Positions 12,318 through 23,453 of a stretch of DNA of 64,000 nt are shown in pieces. Source of the DNA: Anthostomella pinea (Eukaryota > Ascomycota > Sordariomycetes > Xylariales > Xylariaceae). Position 1 is the first letter of the stretch; the number at the start of each line of letters is the position of its first letter. Under the pieces are notes generated by a model, which worked only from the letters and a program-made list of their open reading frames with translations, had not been told where the DNA came from and ran no database searches. The stretch spans positions 186,001 to 250,000 of the forward strand of contig CAUWAG010000004.1 of NCBI GenBank assembly GCA_963556695.1, given 5' to 3'. The position numbers were made by a program, and so were the translations under genes.

Positions 12318-14757
12318 TCACCAAAATGGTACCTGTTTCTCGCTCTCTGGAATCTTCTGGTCCCGCTCGTTCGACTCCTGGATGACCGTCACATTACTTG
12401 CACCGCGTCGGTTGCCTCCCCGAGCGGCCTTCTCCTTGACCCAACGGGGCTCGAGAATCTCCTTGCCGACCATCGCGCCATCGCTGTCGAGTTTCGCATA
12501 AAATGTCTCGATCGGGAGCTGGTCCTCAGAATCGTAGTGCATCCTGTGTCCCATGCGGTTGAACATGACGTCGCGGACGCTCGGCTGCTCGGGCGCACAG
12601 CACGAGCCCCACGCAGGGAACCGGCTGATGATGCTGCGCCCAGGGATGCGACGCCGGCTCTGGTCGATGATGTGGATGATAGTGGGGATGACGACCTCGT
12701 GGAACGTCCGCCGCTCGTGGAACGCGAGCGCCAGGTAGATGTAGTCCTCGAAAAGCGTCCGGGGGATGTAGTAGAAGTCGGACCACCCGGTGCAGAACTC
12801 GTGGGGGTCGATCACGTAGGGGGCGTTGGCGGCTACCAACTTCTGCACGGTGGCTAGGGCCTGGACATGGAGTGCCCGTCCGTCGTGCAGAGGTTGCCAG
12901 CCGGACTGCTCGATCTCGGTCATGCATTCGAAACTGGGGCTGGCCCATCGCGACACGTCGTTGAACCACATGTTGGTCATGTCCTCGCCTGCGAAGTCGA
13001 ACGGGTGCACCCATGCGTCGAAGTGGTAGTAGAGCAGGCCCTCTATGTCCGAGGTGTTCAATTTGCTCGTGGAGTTTCCGTGTTTCGTGCTGTTTTGGTG
13101 GAAGCCGGGCCACGCCTCACCGTCCAAGATCATCTGCATCGTCTCGGCGACCTGTAGGTAGATCTCATGGGTCCCGGTAAAGGCATCGGTAGTCAAGTCC
13201 TGACCAATGTCATCGCTATCCGAGATGTCTGGCCCGCTATAGTGGAGGGTGTGGAAGAAGGGCCGGTATTTGTCTATCAGTGGCATACGTTCATAGTGAG
13301 GGGAATTCCAGCGAACGAAGCCCAATGTTCTGTTGAATGGCGAGTCGAGACGTATCATCGCGGCATCCTCCTCCGGCTCTTTGGACGACTTGTCCGCGGC
13401 AAGGTAGTTTACGTACAGCCTGGCCTGCACCGAGATCAAGACCGTGAAGATGGTGAAGGCAATGGGAGCATAGTTGGAATATCTCTGTCAAATCTGTTGT
13501 TACTATAGCTGGTGGGCAGTTCTTTGCGCTCGGGAACTCACCTGATAGAAGCTCTTGTGAAGGGTCAACGAGGCCGGCGACTGCATCGAACCTTGCGTGG
13601 GCCCCAGGACACCCTTGACAGGTTCGCGCATATAAGTCCAGGACGAGAGGAAGATAATGATGGTACCCACGATGGCAACTGGTGTCAAGGGTAGCCCAAA
13701 GAGAAGCGACGAGAAGTACACCAATAAAGCCGTCGTGATGCCTGTCGCGAGACACTTGATGACGACATCTGCGTCTAATGATAGAGGAAAGAAATCAGCA
13801 CTGTCGGCAGCCAAAGTCTTGATTGTAAGTATCTCACATTTGTATACCGCCGTGATCGCTAGTCCGATAAGGACATTGCTGGCGATGACCAGGATTGATC
13901 GAATATCGCCGTATCCGGTCACGAGATTAGGCTCTTCAGGGCTAAACAGACGTGTCGCGAAGTGTATCGTTAGGTTGACGAGGAAGCCTGCAAAGTACAA
14001 CACGGCATTCTGCGCATGCAGAGACGCTGCTTTGTCCTTCACCAGAGACTCGTTGAATATCCCCGAGGCAGCCGACAAGACTACTTGGAAGAAGAGTAAC
14101 GCATAGACTGGAAGGCTGTAGACGGCACCAGAGTTCGTGGAATACTGCGTGACGGCCAGGCCACAGAGCTGAAACGCTACTGCCAGCCATTGAACCTCCG
14201 AGATCTTCTTTTTCAGACAGACAACTGACAGAGCAGCCGTTAAGCCAGTGACGGTGGACCGTACGAGACTAATCGTACCCGGATCGGCAACTTCGTATGC
14301 AATGAAGATCTGGGGATAGAGTAAGCCAAGATACTACCTCTAGAAGTACGATGATTCTTACGGTATTGTTGATCAGAGCATAGAAGAGGGCCAAGTTCCA
14401 AAACCCACAACGTGCATCAAACGGGATCTCCTGGGCCAAGCTCCTGAGGGTTCCGGCGAACCTTCGTTCATCCTCGGGAGACTTATCGTCATCCGAGGTT
14501 ACCGAATCCGAAGACGGGACTGAAACGTATGCGCTTGACCCGAGCTGGGATCTTCTTCGTCTGCGTAGTTGAACGGAATATAGGCTGAGGGCTATGGCAA
14601 GCTTGAGGAATTCGGATATCGCGATGGATCCGGGCCCGGAGAAACTGTATTTCCCACCGTTCTGGGCTACCTTCATCAAAACACCTATGCCCACTTGAAT
14701 GGCGATGAGGGCAAGAGCGGCCACGAACCCGGCCGACTGATGGCCGAACTCCCACAT
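12318..14757 (-). CDS. Nucleotide-sugar transporter fused to a large C-terminal domain predicted to be luminal
   Basis: 755 aa from four exons in perfect phase: 14757-14362, 14309-13838, 13774-13542, 13484-12318. Residues 1-367 are a nucleotide-sugar transporter of the UDP-galactose/CMP-sialate type (SLC35A-like); landmarks are SIAISEFLKLAIALSLY, the helix spanning ALINNT/IFIAYEVADP across the first junction, and NVLIGLAITAVYKYADVVIKCLATGITT, where the second junction restores the family YADxVIKxLAT motif. I count ten membrane helices there and an eleventh at about 372-392 (NYAPIAFTIFTVLISVQARLYV). The rest carries five N-x-S/T sequons and conserved-looking blocks (YYHFDAWVHPFDF, FCTGWSDFYYIP, WGSCC), which resemble a family of fungal secretory-pathway proteins but no enzyme I can name. 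It is transcribed divergently from the trimodular enzyme at 15525. A Golgi location is inferred from the family. Confidence 0.8.
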
Positions 14758-15524
14758 CTTGCTGCTGTGAAGAAAACCTGTTGGATATTCGATGTCTTCA
14801 CGAGAAGAGAGAAAAGGGGGGGTTCAGCGGATGGAGTGACTGCTAAATGAAACGGAGACTTTAGAATGGGAGATGTCTGGGAGCCCTGATTGTTCCTCGC
14901 GTTCCCTCCGGTCGCGTTATCGCCCCTCACCAAGGGAATGCGAAAGCGCGACTTCGGAGTGTCTCAAACGCGTATACAAGAACGTGGCGTCGATGAAATG
15001 CATCGCTGATTCGGGGATGGCACGCAGGGAGGAAAGGATAAGCCTGCAATGAGTTTCCGCCTGCAGACCGCAAGTTCCTGGAGTAGATTGATTGGACGGA
15101 CACGTTGATTCTGAAGCCGAAGACGCTAGCCCGGTGTCGTATTTCATGCATGAGCTCGACGAAGCTTAAAGAGGAGGCAAGAAATACTAAGCCCAATCAG
15201 CGGAGCATCTTGTTCGTGGACTTATGAGAGAGCAGTTCATTGAGGCACCACTGCTGATTTTCTGAAATGTGTGGAGTGGCCTGGACGGATGGGATTGCCA
15301 AGGTCTCAATACCCCTGAAACAGAACGGAAGCCATGTCTGGATTCCAGCGACTGATGCTCATGGCGCGATGCTGCTTCGCTGCCCTTACAAGAACGGGTC
15401 ACCGTGTCCTTGAGGGGCGACTTATTCATGAGCCCTCTGCCGGGTAACAACTGCACTTCCAGTCTTCCTACAACGATCCTCTCCAAGTACCCCTATCCAG
15501 CCAAACACTCGAAACGTCCTCGTT
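14758..15524. promoter_or_regulatory. Shared divergent promoter of the transporter fusion and the trimodular enzyme
   Basis: The 767 bp between the two start codons must carry both promoters. Minus-strand frames here (for example 15187-15486) show no recognisable protein. I see no clear TATA box or known operator; joint regulation is inferred from the head-to-head layout only. Confidence 0.5.
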
Positions 15525-18038
15525 ATGGGTCTTCGTTCGGGACCATCAGACGAGAAGGATGACACCCCAATGACGGATGGGGCTGTGAATGACACCCCGA
15601 TGGTAGACGAGGCTGTGAATGTTATTCTTCCCATCGGCGGCATCGGCTCAAGGTTCGCCAAACAAGGCTATCGTTATCCCAAGCCGCTCATCAATATCGT
15701 TGGAAGGCCGATCATTTTATGGCTGATTGACAACCTTCAGTTAAGAAAAGACGATACCGTGTGGATGGCCATCAATGAGGACGTGGATGAAGTCTTCCGT
15801 GTTGGTCAACTGGTCAGCAAGGCCTTCCCCAAGCTCGACATCAGACTCGTCAAACTACGGCACCAGACCAAAGGGGCCAGCGAAACTGTCAGTTGCCCCC
15901 GACGATGTATTTTCTTCCTTGTCCCTACTAATGCTTAAATCAGCTGTATGTCGTCTCTCAAAGCATGACAAGAGAACACCTTACCAGGAAAACGGTCTCG
16001 CTTGATTGTGATACCATATACTGGGCAGATATACTCGGCAGGATCCGGGCACTGCCGTCTGGTTGCGGTGGTTGCTTTTACTTCCGAGATGCTGGGGACA
16101 ATCCTATATTCAGCTACTTGAAAACGGAGCAGGAGTGAGGAGAGCCATTTTGTCATGTTGTGAATCGTTTCGCTGACAGTGGTAGGGCTGGGCTTGAGAG
16201 AATTGTCGACATCCAAGAGAAGAAGGCCATATCTCGGAAAGCGAACACGGGAGCCTACGTCTTCCCAAGCGCCTCGAAGTTGAGGACCTGGGCCGCCCAG
16301 AACCTAGACTACATTGTTCAGGATGATACTGAAGTTGGCGAGTTTTACACTTCGCATCTCATTCTGCTTATGATTCATAACGACGTGACCTTCCTTGGTC
16401 TGGGCATCGAGAAGAAGGACTTCGATTGTGTTGGGACGCCTGAGCAGTTGCAAGAGCTGCTCATGAGCCTCAAGTCCTCCGAGGAGCCCAAGCTCAACAA
16501 CAAGCGCAGATTCTGCTTTGATCTGGACATGACACTGGTGGGAGTGCCGGCGGTCCCAGGCGATTATTCCACGTGCCCTCCCATAGAGAAGAATATCAGG
16601 CTGGTCCAGCAGCTTCACAAAGCAGGTCACTACATCATCATCGTAAGCCCACTAAACCAACCCGGAGTGAGCAGCGAATTGACTCGTCACATAGCAAACC
16701 GCCCGGAGAATGCGTACCCATCACGGCAACGTTGGAGCCGTTATAGCGGACGTCGGGCAGCTCACCCTCAGACAGCTCGACAGATACAAGATCCCGTTCC
16801 ACGATGTTCACTTCGGAAAGCCATATGCGGATGTCTACGTGGACGACTTGGCCGTCAACTCGAACCTCGACACCATGCGAGAGATTGGCTGGCTCCTCGA
16901 GGACTCGAATATGGCGGTCATCCCGGAACAGTCAGATGCTTCTACTAAGAAGGCCGGCATGATTCCAGCTCGTGATTTCAACACCATCCAAATGATTGGC
17001 GACAAGGTCGTCAAGTCCAGCAAGTCGGAGAATATCCTGGGCGAACTCTACTTCTACGCCCACATGCCTCAGGAGCTGTCGCATGTCTTCCCGTCGGTCT
17101 ACAATGTCGATTACATCCCAGACACAAAGAACTTCACCATCACAATGGAGAACCGCAAAGGCCAGACCTTCTCACACCTTCTCGTGGGCCGATCTATAAC
17201 GAAGGGTCGCCTAGTCTCCCTACTCAAGGCACTGCACACCATACATTCAGCTCAAAGCAATTCAGAACCATCCTTGAATGTGTCAAGCGCACTTGCGGCA
17301 AAGTTCGACGCCCACTCCTTGGAGCGGGCCGACCACCACGTGAACATCTACGCCAACTACGGCGCGAAGCTGCGATCGCGCTATGATACGCACCGCGAGC
17401 GATACGACGCTCTCGGCCCCGTGGCAGCATCGTTGTTCAGCCGTCTCAACGAGTTCCTTGACACCTACGAGGCCGAAGACAAGGGCGTCCACGCCCAGGT
17501 CATCCACGGAGATCCCGTCTTCAGCAACGCCATCCTGTCCAAGGACGAGAAGCTGGTCAGCTTTATCGACGTGAGGTGCCAGCTGGAGAACACGCTCACG
17601 CCCGAGGGCGACATCCACTATGACCTGGCCAAGGTTCTGCAGTCCCTGTGCGGGTACGACCACATCCTGTTCATGTCGGCGAATAAATGCGATCTCTCGG
17701 GCTACGACGGCGAAGGAGCAACGCCCCTCCTGGACCAGCCCGACGCGGACCTTCTCGAGACGCTGCGGGGCGTCTTCTTCGAGTACTTGGAGGGCTCCTA
17801 CAAGGTGCGCCTGCACCGTAAGACCCTGTATCGCATCACGGCCAGCCTGTTCTTCAGCTTGATTCCGCTTCACCGCCCTGAGCTGGGTGCCGTGTTCTTG
17901 CGGCTTTGCAAGGAGACACTGGATAAGGCGAGCGGGATCAGTCCCGGCATCGGGTCTAGGACTGCGAGTGTCATGGCATTGTCAAGGACTCTGAGCGGCA
18001 TCGGCACGCTCAGCAACTGCATGAGCCCAATCTCATAG
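15525..18038 (+). CDS. Trimodular nucleotidyltransferase - HAD phosphatase - APH-type kinase
   Basis: 784 aa from four exons: 15525-15887, 15944-16134, 16186-16642, 16695-18038, all phases agreeing. Residues 33-250 form a sugar/choline-phosphate-type nucleotidyltransferase with ILPIGGIGSRFAKQGYRYPKPL (signature GGxGSRF...PKPL) and a middle portion FYFRDAGDNPIFSYLKTEQE. Residues 292-390 form a HAD phosphatase: DLDMT at about 297-301, TARRMRTHHGNVG, and HFGKPYADVYVDDLAVN. Residues 430-760 form an aminoglycoside/choline-kinase-like phosphotransferase with the catalytic HGDPVFSN near 609 and FIDVR near 631. The HAD and kinase blocks resemble bacterial capsule-locus and giant-virus proteins more than ordinary fungal enzymes. 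By analogy with LicC/LicA-like modules it could phosphorylate a small alcohol or sugar and activate it with CTP or another NTP; the actual substrate is unknown. DLDMT has Met where DxDGT is usual. Confidence 0.85.
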
Positions 18039-18760: not shown

Positions 18761-20114
18761 CTACAATACACTCCTCGCAGCCTCAGCGCCAGCAATCCTC
18801 CCAAAGACAGCGCATTCCAGCAAGGACGAGCCACCAAGCCTATTGGCACCATGTATGCCGCCCGTGATCTCACCAGCAGCCCACAGACCGTCAATAGGAG
18901 CCAATGCGTCCTCTTTCTTGCGGAGCACCTGCGTAGCAGTGTTGAAAGCGACACCTCCCATGGTGAAATGAATCACGGGCGTCACGGTTCCCACGCACAC
19001 CTCCTGTTCTCTATTCGCTTCCCCAGCCGGCAATCTCCAGTGCCCAAACGTCCTCCTCCCAAACGCAGCATCCGAGCCTGACGCTACAGTCTCCGCGTAC
19101 TTGTCCACCGATGCAATGACCGTGGGTGGCAGGTCCTTGACCTTTCTCTTCTCCATCAGCCCCTTCCACAGATAAAACGACAAATGCGAAGCCGTCGCCT
19201 CGCAAGCCCCTGGGTCAAGAAGCAAAGTGATACCCCACTGCCGCACCGAGTCGAGCCCCGAGCGCGGAAGCGCCATGATGGCCTCGCTCACAACATCCCT
19301 CCTATCCATCTCATTAACAAACCGCTCCCCTGCACTCGAGAGCAAGATGCCACCCTCTCCCCGAAGCGCCTCGGCCGCGAGGAACTTGTAGCCCGCGCCC
19401 GCGTCTTTGGGGTCCACGAATCCAGTCGGGTGGATCTGCACACACTCCATATCGACGAACTCGGCGCCGACCTGGGCGAGCAAAGCGTGAGACCCCGGCT
19501 TCGCCTCGTTCGTCGACGGCATGCCCTCCAGATCCGGCCGGTGCTTCGCCAACAGCCCGTGTGCATCCCCGGCAAACCCGCCCGCGGCGAACACGACCGG
19601 TCCCTGCAGCTCATGCGTCTGGCCGTCAGCTGAATACCGCACGCCGCCCACCGCACCGCCGCCGGCGTCGCCCGTCGTCAGCAGCGCCTCCACGTCCGCA
19701 GACGTACTCAATGTAAACCCCGCGTTTTCATTGAACTGCTTCAACAGCGCCGTCACGATCGCCGCGCCCGGCGGCGGATTGCCCCGCCCGCGATGCGTGC
19801 GCGCGACCGAGTGGCCCCCGAGCTGCGCGACAACGCTCAGATCGACGCCGATCTCGTCGACGAGCCAGTCAACGGCGCCCTTCGACCGCGCCGTCAGCTC
19901 CTGGATCAGCTCTTTTCGCGCGAGGCCTGGTGGTCCCGCCTGCAGCCTAGCCCCGGCGGAGCGCAGCGTGTCGTCGGTGAAGCTGTCGTCGGTGGCGTGC
20001 TGGAACCGCGTGCCGGCGCCATTGATGCCCGAGGAGGCCTTGATGCTGTTGCCGCCGGGCTTGGGGGCGCGTTCGAGCATGTGCACGCGGACGCCGGCCT
20101 TCAGGGCCTCGTGC

Positions 20115-20148
<34 letters not shown>

Positions 20149-20341
20149 AGCCCACGATGATGACGGGGTTGCTGCTGGGCACTGACATTTGGAAGGCAGA
20201 CGTGACGGTGATGCTGGGCTTAGACAAGAGGTTGAGCGCGGTGGTGGCGATGATGCGGTGGTAGAACATGTATAGCACTGCTGTTGCGAGCCCGAGTGTG
20301 AAGTTTGTCAGTAGGAAGCGAGGGGAACATCGCGCATGCAT
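18761..20341 (-). CDS. osm1: Soluble fumarate reductase (Osm1/Frd1 type flavoprotein)
   Basis: 526 aa, single exon. The enzyme reduces fumarate to succinate with FADH2/FMNH2, re-oxidising flavin under low oxygen; yeast forms act in mitochondria, ER or cytosol. An N-terminal hydrophobic segment (LLTNFTLGLATAVLYMFY) precedes the FAD-binding motif IIVGSGLAGLAGLAGAHEA, about residues 58-78. Catalytic-region blocks are present: MECVQIHPTGF, ALRGEGGILLSSAGERFVNE and, near the end, GLWAAGEITGGIHGANRLGGSSLLECAVFGR with the expected His and Arg. There is no cytochrome b5 or ApbE extension. Odd feature: a 9-bp repeat lengthens the loop after the GxGxxG by three residues relative to the usual GLAGLSAAHEA (see findings). 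GC content is very high in the 5' half. The N-terminal helix could be a signal anchor or targeting sequence. Confidence 0.92.
20119..20148 (-). repeat. Three tandem 9-bp GGCGAGGCC units inside the FAD-binding loop
   Basis: Three head-to-tail GGCGAGGCC copies (on the plus strand) encode a repeated Gly-Leu-Ala in the Rossmann motif of the fumarate reductase. The repeat keeps the frame. Confidence 0.8.
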
Positions 20342-21000: not shown

Positions 21001-22453
21001 TCACGATTCCGTGTTCACGCCACCCCCAACCAGATCAACAACCGCGTTAAAATTCGGCGACTGACAACTCGCCGTAATAGCATGCGAACTCTTCCCCGTA
21101 GCCACAGTCCTGCCATCCCGCATGATCACCACCTCCGGGGTGACGCCCGCTCCCAAGTCCGCCAGGAACGGCGCCATGCCCACAGCCGGGCCGTCCGGAT
21201 CAGCCTCAAAAGTCCGCTGATTACTGCCGACCGTGACCGAGATATTCGCCTTATTCGTGACGAGCGCCCATGCAAACACGGCATCGGCGGGCAAGTCGCT
21301 GTTGCGGACGCCGCTGCACGCCGCCGCGGGGTGCACGCGGTGCCAGAAGACGACCTGGTCCATCGTGGGCGACGGAGCGGCGCCGCCGTTCTTCCACCAG
21401 CTAGTATAATAGTGCGCGAGCGTGCGCCAGGGCGCGTGGCTCATGCCGTCGACGTAGCTGCGTTCCAGGTCGGTGAGCTGGACGTAGGCCGAGGCCGAGT
21501 TGTCGCTCGTCGAGGGCAGGTCGCGGATGTAGTGCGACTCGGCCCAGTCGTTCCAGGTGATGAGCTCGATGATATCGGGGTTGATTACGGCGTCTGGGCC
21601 GGTGAGCAGCTCGAAGCGCTGCGGGAAGAGGTAGTCGCTGTAGGCGACCCAAGAGTCCGCGGTTTTGCCGTCGTTGAGGTCCTTGAACTCCAGGGCGAGA
21701 CGGCTGTGATACTGTCAGCTCCAGGTTTTGCTGTGTGCGAGAGGGTTACTTACCCATGATATAAGGCCCGCTCTTGCCGGCCTTGCGCAGTGCGGACTGG
21801 AAGTCCTTGTCCACTTCGGCCGTAGTCTTCTTCTTGACATTGAGAGGCCATGCCTGCCAGTTCAAAAAGCCATCGATCGAGCTGTACTCGCTTAGCAGGC
21901 TTGAGGCACTGCTCTTAGCATCAGCATCACCACGCTGCGCATTTGACGAGTACGTGGTCAAGGCTGGCGCCAGCTTGATAGATGTAGACCCCATGGCGCT
22001 CTTCAGATTCTCGAAGAACCCGTTGCCGTACTCGTTGACCGCGTCGCCCCCGTACGTGGTCACCAGCAAAGCATTATCCCACCGGTATGCAGCGGCGCTG
22101 TCGGCATGCTTGGAGATGACGCCCGCCATGTACGTCTCGTTCCAGTATATTTTGCACTTGCTCCAGCTCATGTCGAAGGAGTGCACGAGCTTGAAGCCCA
22201 GTGGCTTCGCCGCCGCGAAGGCGTCGTCGATGCGGCTGGGGAGCCAGTCCGTGCCCGACTCGCAATCGGGCGGGTTCCAGTTCAGGGCGAAGCCATCAAT
22301 GCCGACCTGCTGCGCGGCTATGATGTCCGTCTTCCACCGTGCCGCCGTGTAGGCGTAGGAGTTGGACACCATGAAATGGGCCAAGACAGACGCGGCATCA
22401 GTGAGCTGGGCTGCGCGCGCCCATACCACGGCGAGTGTCACGGCCGAACGCAT
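21001..22453 (-). CDS. GH71 alpha-1,3-glucanase (mutanase), secreted
   Basis: Hydrolyses alpha-1,3-glucan of fungal walls. The start at 22453 gives a short hydrophobic leader (MRSAVTLAVVWARAAQL) typical of secretion, then VLAHFMVSNSYAYTAARWKTDI, GIDGFALNWNPPDC, GFKLVHSFDMSW (family catalytic-region Asp), FLNWQAWPLN, and after the intron WVAYSDYLFPQRFELL, ITWNDWAESHYI and a C-terminal beta domain. Exon 2 is 21703-21001. The strong donor GTAAGT (exon 1 ending 21754) gives MAVSPW, the family motif, but then runs out of frame. The weaker donor GTAACC four bases on (exon 1 ending 21750) keeps the frame for a 468-aa protein but loses VSPW. Thus either the weak donor is used or one G is missing after CCCTGG near 21692. 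Single-domain enzyme without the CBM24 modules of some mutanases. Confidence 0.88.
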
Positions 22454-23453
22454 CTCGGACGCTGTGAGACGTTGTGGTGGCTGGCCAAGTTGCGTCCGTA
22501 CTGTAACGAAGGAAACCGTCAAGAGCTGGCTGAGGGAGTACTGAAGTTAGTCGCCGTCTAGAAAGGTACGGGCATAATATGACAATGCCTACGGCTTATA
22601 AGTCAGGACCGGGCTGACTGAGTCGTTGATACAACCCTGGTCCTTGCTACGTCAGTCAGATCAGTCTCATATGATCAGCTCCCATCCTTTGATCAGCTGC
22701 CCCTTTGATCTCACCTCCCATCCTTGGCCCTCGTGCTGTAGAAGTTATTTTAAGCATTTTGCTAGACAACTATGTCGGCAACGGACGCTGCACGACAAAG
22801 ACCGTACATACTGCCAATCAGGTGGGCTTGGCATCCTATCTGCCGGAACTTTCTGCTGACAAGGTCGCAATCAAAGTCGTACTTGGAATCCTTCCCGTCC
22901 TGTGTACGGCACGGATATTGGGGTCGTCCCGCTCGTATTCGACGAAGTTCCAACGAAGGATGGAGCGAAAGGATTTTGACACGCGGAGTCAAAGACGCCG
23001 TCGTGGCCGTCTTCTTGTCCATCATCTGAGCACTCAACACTCGACATTCGAATGTCCCGAGTAGCTTTCGAGGCTGGCAGTAGCTATATTGATATTGGCT
23101 TTCATCTTAGTAAGTGTTCGCAAAGAAACGAACAAGTTTGACCACTGGTGGCCTCCCATTTCTCTAGATCCATGATCATCAACACGACGGATGAGTAGAA
23201 TAATCACAGTGCAGCCTGTGCTGATGAATTATCTACCAGTGTATAACTGGCACCATCTCTGTCAGTAATAAGGTATTCATATGCCCAGTATGACACGTTG
23301 CTCGAATGTACCTAGTGATAGCTGCCACTAACTGTAGCAGATACCCCAGCGACCAGGGAAGCACCAATGCATGACGCCTCACAACGCCTGTACCTGACAT
23401 TTGTCTTTTCCTTTCCTGAAACCCCATGTGCTACTACGGCCTTTTGCAGATGC
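22454..23453. other. Intergenic, promoter of the GH71 gene
   Basis: Short frames on both strands without motifs; no splice-linked coding sequence found. The right side is the 3' flank of the BTB-type regulator. Confidence 0.5.

Follow-up and report, generated by a model that had tools for sequence, protein, structure and literature searches.

Kinase, HAD phosphatase and nucleotidyltransferase (NTase) act in series in the pathways to ADP-heptose (HldE/GmhB) and GDP-heptose (HddA/GmhB/HddC). These are among the closest described counterparts of a pair of divergent genes found in a 64,000-nucleotide stretch of the Anthostomella pinea genome (contig CAUWAG010000004.1, positions 186,001 to 250,000; this whole stretch is called the window below). 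One gene encodes an NTase-HAD-kinase protein and the other a nucleotide-sugar transporter fused to a glycosyltransferase-like domain. The same HAD type also stands in an ADP-heptose-type gene group of cyanophages. The heptose pathways differ in that the fungal version is one chain with an APH-type kinase instead of a PfkB or GHMP kinase, and in that the GmhA-type isomerase family SIS_2 (PF13580) gave no match in the A. pinea genome, in a search whose control found PF13580 in 9 of 14 genomes. A second counterpart, MupP-AmgK-MurU of UDP-N-acetylmuramic acid (MurNAc) recycling, likewise combines a HAD phosphatase, an APH-type anomeric kinase and an NTase, but these are separate, MurNAc-specific bacterial proteins, and the fungal protein misses the MurU cut-off. 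The ORF53_52c/ORF055c module of phage RB69 is similar in its NTase-kinase fusion, with HAD and SIS isomerase genes as neighbours in phage PspYZU05; here the homology is distant only, the domain order is another one and the fungal gene has no adjoining SIS gene. Trypanosomatids resemble the fungal case as eukaryotes that activate D-arabinose for surface glycans, as GDP-D-arabinopyranose, but do so with an arabinokinase and a pyrophosphorylase acting on free D-arabinose (PMC11301363). The partner protein compares with SLC35A/PF04142 transporters, since it exceeds the PF04142 cut-off and its PDB matches are CMP-sialic acid transporters, and differs in being fused to one more helix and to a GT-A domain. 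This domain, in turn, differs from the GT-A enzymes CHSY3-CHPF, C2GnT and AfGfsA in having HFD instead of a clear DxD and in belonging to no Pfam family.

We consider it probable that the two proteins work together in glycosylation as one module, made of a cytosolic enzyme that converts a phosphosugar into a nucleoside diphosphate (NDP)-sugar and a Golgi transporter-transferase. In the proposed mechanism, the trimodular enzyme would take up, in the cytosol, a sugar with a phosphate on its end carbon. Its APH-type kinase would phosphorylate the anomeric hydroxyl to give a 1,n-bisphosphate or, if the sugar is a ketose, a 2,n-bisphosphate. The HAD module would strip the end phosphate from the bisphosphate, and the NTase would couple a nucleotide to the resulting sugar-1-phosphate. 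Import of the NDP-sugar into the Golgi would fall to the PF04142 half of the fusion, and there the tethered luminal GT-A domain would pass the sugar on to an acceptor, be it a glycan, a glycolipid or a protein.

The locus lies on contig C3 of the 53.7-Mb genome, and no second copy of either gene was found in that genome. The initial annotation had described a 784-amino acid (aa) NTase-HAD-kinase and a 755-aa transporter fusion that start 767 bp apart and point away from each other. Both gene models equal the deposited proteins and confirm this layout. The features are as follows (positions in the window):

15525..18038, + strand: trimodular gene Uu.00g095890 (protein P0001), 784 aa, 100% to the deposited protein; four exons, 15525-15887, 15944-16134, 16186-16642 and 16695-18038
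15615..16480, + strand: NTase module, about residues 31-283, with GGxGxRF, KP, DxD and EK; spans the introns 15888-15943 and 16135-16185
16499..16883, + strand: HAD phosphatase module, about residues 290-400, with DLDMT, T339, K379 and DD387-388; spans the intron 16643-16694
16971..17933, + strand: APH-type kinase module, about residues 430-750, with K444, E454, HGDPVFSN and D629
14758..15524, no strand: intergenic region of 767 bp between the start codons, a putative shared promoter region
12318..14757, - strand: transporter-glycosyltransferase fusion gene Uu.00g095880 (protein P0121), 755 aa, 100% to the deposited protein; four exons, 14757-14362, 14309-13838, 13774-13542 and 13484-12318
13542..14757, - strand: nucleotide-sugar transporter part, exons 1-3, with the PF04142 match at residues 123-337
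13386..13472, - strand: extra hydrophobic helix, about residues 372-400, from hydropathy and helix 5-33 of the structure model; topology predicted
12462..13355, - strand: GT-A-fold glycosyltransferase domain, about residues 411-708, with N427, H448, HFD523xW, WSD603xxxIP and E630; predicted to be luminal

The catalytic residues of all three modules of the enzyme are kept in 63-64 of 64 rows of an alignment that joins 53 of 120 listed homologous proteins with eight virus and three bacterial loci. For the NTase, these are GGxGxRF, a K, the metal-binding D and EK. This module misses the curated Pfam cut-offs (16 of 21.2 bits for PF00483 and 19.6 of 27 bits for PF12804), and many homologues carry PF00483 in precomputed annotation. 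Its fold is nearest to sugar-1-phosphate nucleotidyltransferases, with all 50 matches listed being named sugar nucleotidyltransferases; as the structure search with the trimodular model covered the NTase region, missing kinase or HAD matches there carry no meaning. The HAD module, with its DxD, T, K and DD motifs, matches the EcbF-BcbF HAD phosphatase model TIGR01689 below the NCBIfam cut-off (53.7 of 162 bits, E 1.9e-14), and the kinase, with HGDxxxxN, D, K and E, reaches 18.7 of the 23.2 bits required for PF01636 as part of the whole protein and 21.4 bits on the kinase piece. One protist transcript protein (P0096, 1178 aa) reads by eye as NTase-HAD-NTase-HAD-kinase, its second HAD missing parts of the motifs.

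The partner protein exceeds the PF04142 cut-off clearly (66.3 bits versus 27), and its transporter part matches the CMP-sialic acid transporter 6i1r in the PDB (E 3.3e-15). No Pfam family matched its C-terminal domain; the predicted structure has a GT-A glycosyltransferase fold, with CHSY3-CHPF, C2GnT and AfGfsA as the closest described counterparts at 6-8% identity. The extra helix would place this domain in the lumen. Conservation was counted in an alignment of 57 of the 77 fusion matches (20 near duplicates, fragments and run-on models were omitted), with five chytrid rows counted apart from the other 52. N427, H448, HFD523 and W525 are kept in 52/52 rows, and D603, P608 and E630 in 51, the remaining row being gapped. 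The chytrid C-terminal domains are collinear over 202 columns and have similar motifs, with an hhalign probability of just 24% and no hmmsearch match, so we make no claim that the putative chytrid transferase is the same as the ascomycete one. Two Ophiocordyceps fusions with an apparent epimerase domain (P0170 and P0179) are most likely run-on gene models; both have weak SDR matches in NCBIfam, and the extra part of P0170 resembles aldehyde reductase/ketoreductase structures in the PDB.

The division into donor-making and transport plus transfer proposed by the initial annotation is supported in outline, as far as sequence and predicted structure go. Its comparison with LicA/LicC fared less well. 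A donor of that kind would be no sugar but a CDP-alcohol or CDP-alditol of the phosphocholine, glycerol or ribitol type. Choline_kinase does match two of 18 kinase modules weakly, the window's kinase giving no match at E 0.01, and PF04142 includes CMP-sialic acid transporters and a CDP-ribitol transporter. However, the linked domain is a GT-A, a fold that uses NDP-sugars, while CDP-alditol and phosphocholine transferases fold otherwise, the NTase fold matches listed are to sugar nucleotidyltransferases throughout, and the HAD would have no obvious place. We regard a non-sugar donor as very doubtful. As the linked GT-A domain and the NTase match to sugar-1-phosphate nucleotidyltransferases agree, the predicted product is an NDP-sugar, and the HAD fits best as the phosphatase within that pathway. 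The earlier pathway reading holds in outline for composition, layout, division of labour and linkage, with its choline-type analogy replaced by a phosphosugar-to-NDP-sugar logic.

Linkage could be read from the locus tags of 11 fungal genomes, A. pinea included, that have tags for both proteins. Single, unlinked homologues, which the initial annotation had named as evidence against a shared pathway, are not what most of these genomes hold: the two tags are consecutive in 8/11, the other three being Ophiocordyceps. The eight are Anthostomella (095880/095890, in tags that step by ten), Verticillium albo-atrum (007801/007802), Chlorociboria (1812/1813), Oculimacula (13043/13044), Mollisiaceae sp. 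(004041/004042), Exophiala bonariae (001659/001660), Psora testacea (001928/001929) and the chytrid Phlyctochytrium (008304/008305), which represent Sordariomycetes, Leotiomycetes, Eurotiomycetes and Lecanoromycetes plus one chytrid. Outside A. pinea, neighbourhood here means tag adjacency, and orientation was read in A. pinea alone. Phlyctochytrium has an additional enzyme (009580) and two additional fusions (008946 and 007210), which are mutually non-adjacent by tag. The 118 enzyme and 77 fusion rows have 25 contigs in common, equally long contigs being taken as the same, and 14 of these are under 1 Mb. Further along the window, a FAD_binding_2 gene (18764-20341, - strand) and a GH71 glycosyl hydrolase gene split over two frames (21004-22522, - strand) look ordinary, and a larger cluster is not apparent from those two.

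The pair seems old, and the enzyme on its own is older still and more widely distributed, as far as its homologues indicate. The search returned 280 proteins at E <= 1e-3, the best 120 of which were examined by name, and basidiomycete yeasts, aphelids and Capsaspora carry the enzyme. A FastTree phylogeny of the 64 rows was rooted at the midpoint because the three bacterial rows are not monophyletic. It separates the virus and bacterial loci from all rows that are eukaryotic or are unnamed entries of the protein database. Among named eukaryotes the deep order (Capsaspora and the protist transcript, aphelids, Catenaria, chytrids, basidiomycete yeasts, Ascomycota) is the species order. To us this suggests long-standing vertical inheritance, accompanied by losses and perhaps by a number of transfers, and on this tree the trimodular enzyme is ancient. 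Only A. pinea and Whalleya were recognised as Xylariales among the best 120 of 280 matches, and loss within this order may be common.

Bacterial and viral genomes carry the modules either fused or encoded by genes that adjoin one another. In cyanophage P-SSM2, a HAD gene (TIGR01689, E 1e-8, under the cut-off) follows genes resembling heptose-1-phosphate adenylyltransferase (TIGR02199, E 1e-30) and heptose-7-phosphate kinase (TIGR02198, E 3e-43), with an ADP-heptose epimerase-like gene (TIGR02197, E 5e-62) two genes further on; in cyanophage S-CAM3, the HAD accompanies heptose kinase-like and epimerase-like genes. Given its place in an ADP-heptose-type gene group, this HAD would fill the slot of the bisphosphate phosphatase GmhB, with a PfkB-type kinase in place of the APH-type one. 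The two HAD genes (L130:3995-4339 in P-SSM2 and L131:3995-4315 in S-CAM3) are annotated as 'phosphoheptose isomerase'. By NCBIfam the P-SSM2 gene is an EcbF-type HAD, and the S-CAM3 gene is identified as one because it matches the HAD region of P0001; this annotation on a 114-aa cyanophage HAD is wrong. In the RB69 relative PspYZU05, the genes for the SIS isomerase, the NTase-kinase and the HAD lie side by side. RB69-type phages contain arabinosyl cytosine. Thomas et al. offer the speculation that synthesis of the arabinose donor involves the SIS protein and the NTase-kinase (PMC6024577), in a pathway that a 2026 paper still describes as uncharacterised (PMC13390438). That the HAD would take part in it is our own reading. 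DHBP synthase, an enzyme of riboflavin synthesis, is fused to an NTase in phage S-SKS1 and at a planctomycete locus (L002:5475-6902 and L015:7534-9987), which may point to a four-carbon activated unit. Ribulose-5-phosphate is a substrate of SIS isomerases as well as of DHBP synthase, and sedoheptulose-7-phosphate is where GmhA-type pathways begin. From these three contexts we favour an order in which the anomeric phosphate is added, the end phosphate removed and the sugar then nucleotidylated.

The reverse start would make the enzyme a salvage system: the HAD would dephosphorylate first, the kinase would then phosphorylate the anomeric position of the free sugar, and activation by the NTase would follow, as MupP, AmgK and MurU do for MurNAc; the sugar would come from outside or from glycan turnover. 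The three enzyme classes, here in one chain, are those of MupP-AmgK-MurU. Against the MurU model, the trimodular protein of the window has a weak match (13.1 of 250 bits), and a relative of archaeal origin, an NTase-kinase, has a better one (E 4e-9). Both fall short of the MurU equivalog cut-off, though, and the cyanophage and RB69-like gene groups, which couple the HAD with sugar-phosphate enzymes, fit the bisphosphate order better. Salvage is therefore the less likely order, but with a real share of the probability.

Other arrangements were seen among these loci. The thaumarchaeal locus L016:9998-12717 has two genes, one for a HAD-NTase and the other for a kinase joined to another NTase of a different kind, so some systems use two NTases; L027, L031 and L038 resemble it by gene length. 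A WavE-type cluster (17 proteins in 12 of 118 loci; its representative matches PF07507) occurs at loci with split kinase, HAD and NTase genes (L011-L014, L017, L019, L020, L023, L024, L032, L035 and L040). The WavE-type gene adjoins those genes in L011, L012, L035 and L040 (four of 12 loci inspected) and stands beside them on an annotated Legionella plasmid (L132:7097-9204). The fungal luminal domain was compared with this family and rejected as WavE-like (hhalign probability 0.1).

For the bisphosphate route, the candidate sugars include D-arabinose from D-arabinose-5-phosphate, which we hold possible but unlikely, and D-fructose from fructose-6-phosphate, with about half that weight; the rest falls to heptose, another sugar or a salvage substrate. 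Recombinant human GFAT makes D-arabinose-5-phosphate, and the yeast enzyme can complement a mutant of E. coli (PMC11301363). A. pinea also has a KpsF/GutQ-like arabinose-5-phosphate isomerase gene (L122:1000-2256, contig C3 at about 1.859 Mb), its sole stand-alone SIS gene, on the same contig as the trimodular gene and about 1.66 Mb from it. On these grounds D-arabinose-5-phosphate is a plausible substrate. No match to the CTP_transf_3 CMP-sugar synthetase family was found in the A. pinea genome. As for fructose, this sugar is part of the type e capsule of H. influenzae and of the core of V. cholerae, and both systems probably use this HAD/NTase type. Judged by titles and abstract openings, no paper among those listed dealt with making an NDP-fructose donor, and the C. 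jejuni HS1 locus, which provides fructose branches, counts against fructose, as no kinase/HAD/NTase trio is named among its eleven genes in the accessible text (PMC7901785).

Several observations weigh against the proposed module or its details. The kinase falls under its Pfam cut-off, and the HAD could act first, as MupP does. The comparison with phages is a soft one: arabinosylation is known from RB69-type phages rather than from PspYZU05 itself, and the Thanatos protein TH1_060, a homologue of the RB69 NTase-kinase, had no identifiable activity in vitro, in a study where TH1_063 made UDP-xylose (PMC12838424). Near the virus enzyme, in 50 of 79 virus loci, an SIS isomerase is almost missing: PF01380 matched in 1/50 (under the cut-off) and PF13580 in 1/50 (again that record, at a distance of about 10 kb), while a phage SIS query and a fungal profile run against 2097 open reading frames found the phage gene itself as the sole match. 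The KpsF/GutQ-like isomerase is also present in many Xylariales that have no trimodular enzyme among the matches listed (best 120 of 280). With these 50 virus loci nearly devoid of isomerase and the fungal isomerase not co-distributed with the enzyme among the matches listed, D-arabinose is a candidate only. Within Pezizomycotina the enzyme tree departs from the species tree (Leotiomycetes nest in Sordariomycetes, Fusarium stands away from other Hypocreales, and several nodes have low support). Finally, basidiomycete yeasts, aphelids and Capsaspora have the enzyme with no fusion from them among the matches listed, and three Ophiocordyceps have both genes without adjacency: the tags are 43 apart in O. 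camponoti-leonardi and 22 apart in O. polyrhachis-furcata, on one contig each (both among the 25 shared contigs), and the O. australis genes are on different contigs, one of just 3.7 kb. These last points would suit two genes with no shared pathway, the enzyme's donor being used elsewhere, the fusion using an ordinary donor such as UDP-galactose and the adjacency being inherited order; many fusion homologues are indeed named UDP-galactose or CMP-sialic acid transporters in their sources. Yet consecutive tags in 8/11 genomes, from four ascomycete classes to a chytrid, are unexpected from drift over such distances, and we judge this explanation improbable.

Literature searches returned no described fungal system of this composition, in line with the initial annotation, although one combined query could miss a term. 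A survey of fungal nucleotide-sugar enzymes covers UDP-arabinose among UDP- and GDP-sugars, and the terms heptose, CDP and CMP are absent from its main text, in which fructose was not searched (PMC8092308). Another paper names three known uses of D-arabinose in eukaryotes: glycoconjugates of trypanosomatids, erythroascorbate and a free glycan in urine (PMC11301363). Against that list, a D-arabinosyl glycan from a fungus would be a first.

A fuller reading, that an ancient pathway running from chytrids to ascomycetes adds a novel sugar (for example D-arabinose, fructofuranose or heptose) to fungal Golgi glycans through a phosphate swap on a bisphosphate and coupled import and transfer, is tentative and on balance rather doubtful. 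We know of no fungal glycans that contain any of these three sugars. The module would be a known logic, phosphosugar to NDP-sugar through kinase, HAD and NTase, in a new arrangement of a single chain with a transporter-transferase neighbour, and if true it would be, to our knowledge, the first eukaryotic single-chain kinase-phosphatase-nucleotidyltransferase together with a transporter with a built-in transferase. Fungal glycans would then hold a sugar whose donor the survey did not consider (PMC8092308), and a product would be predicted for a family across bacteria and viruses whose members are mostly named hypothetical protein or capsule biosynthesis phosphatase.

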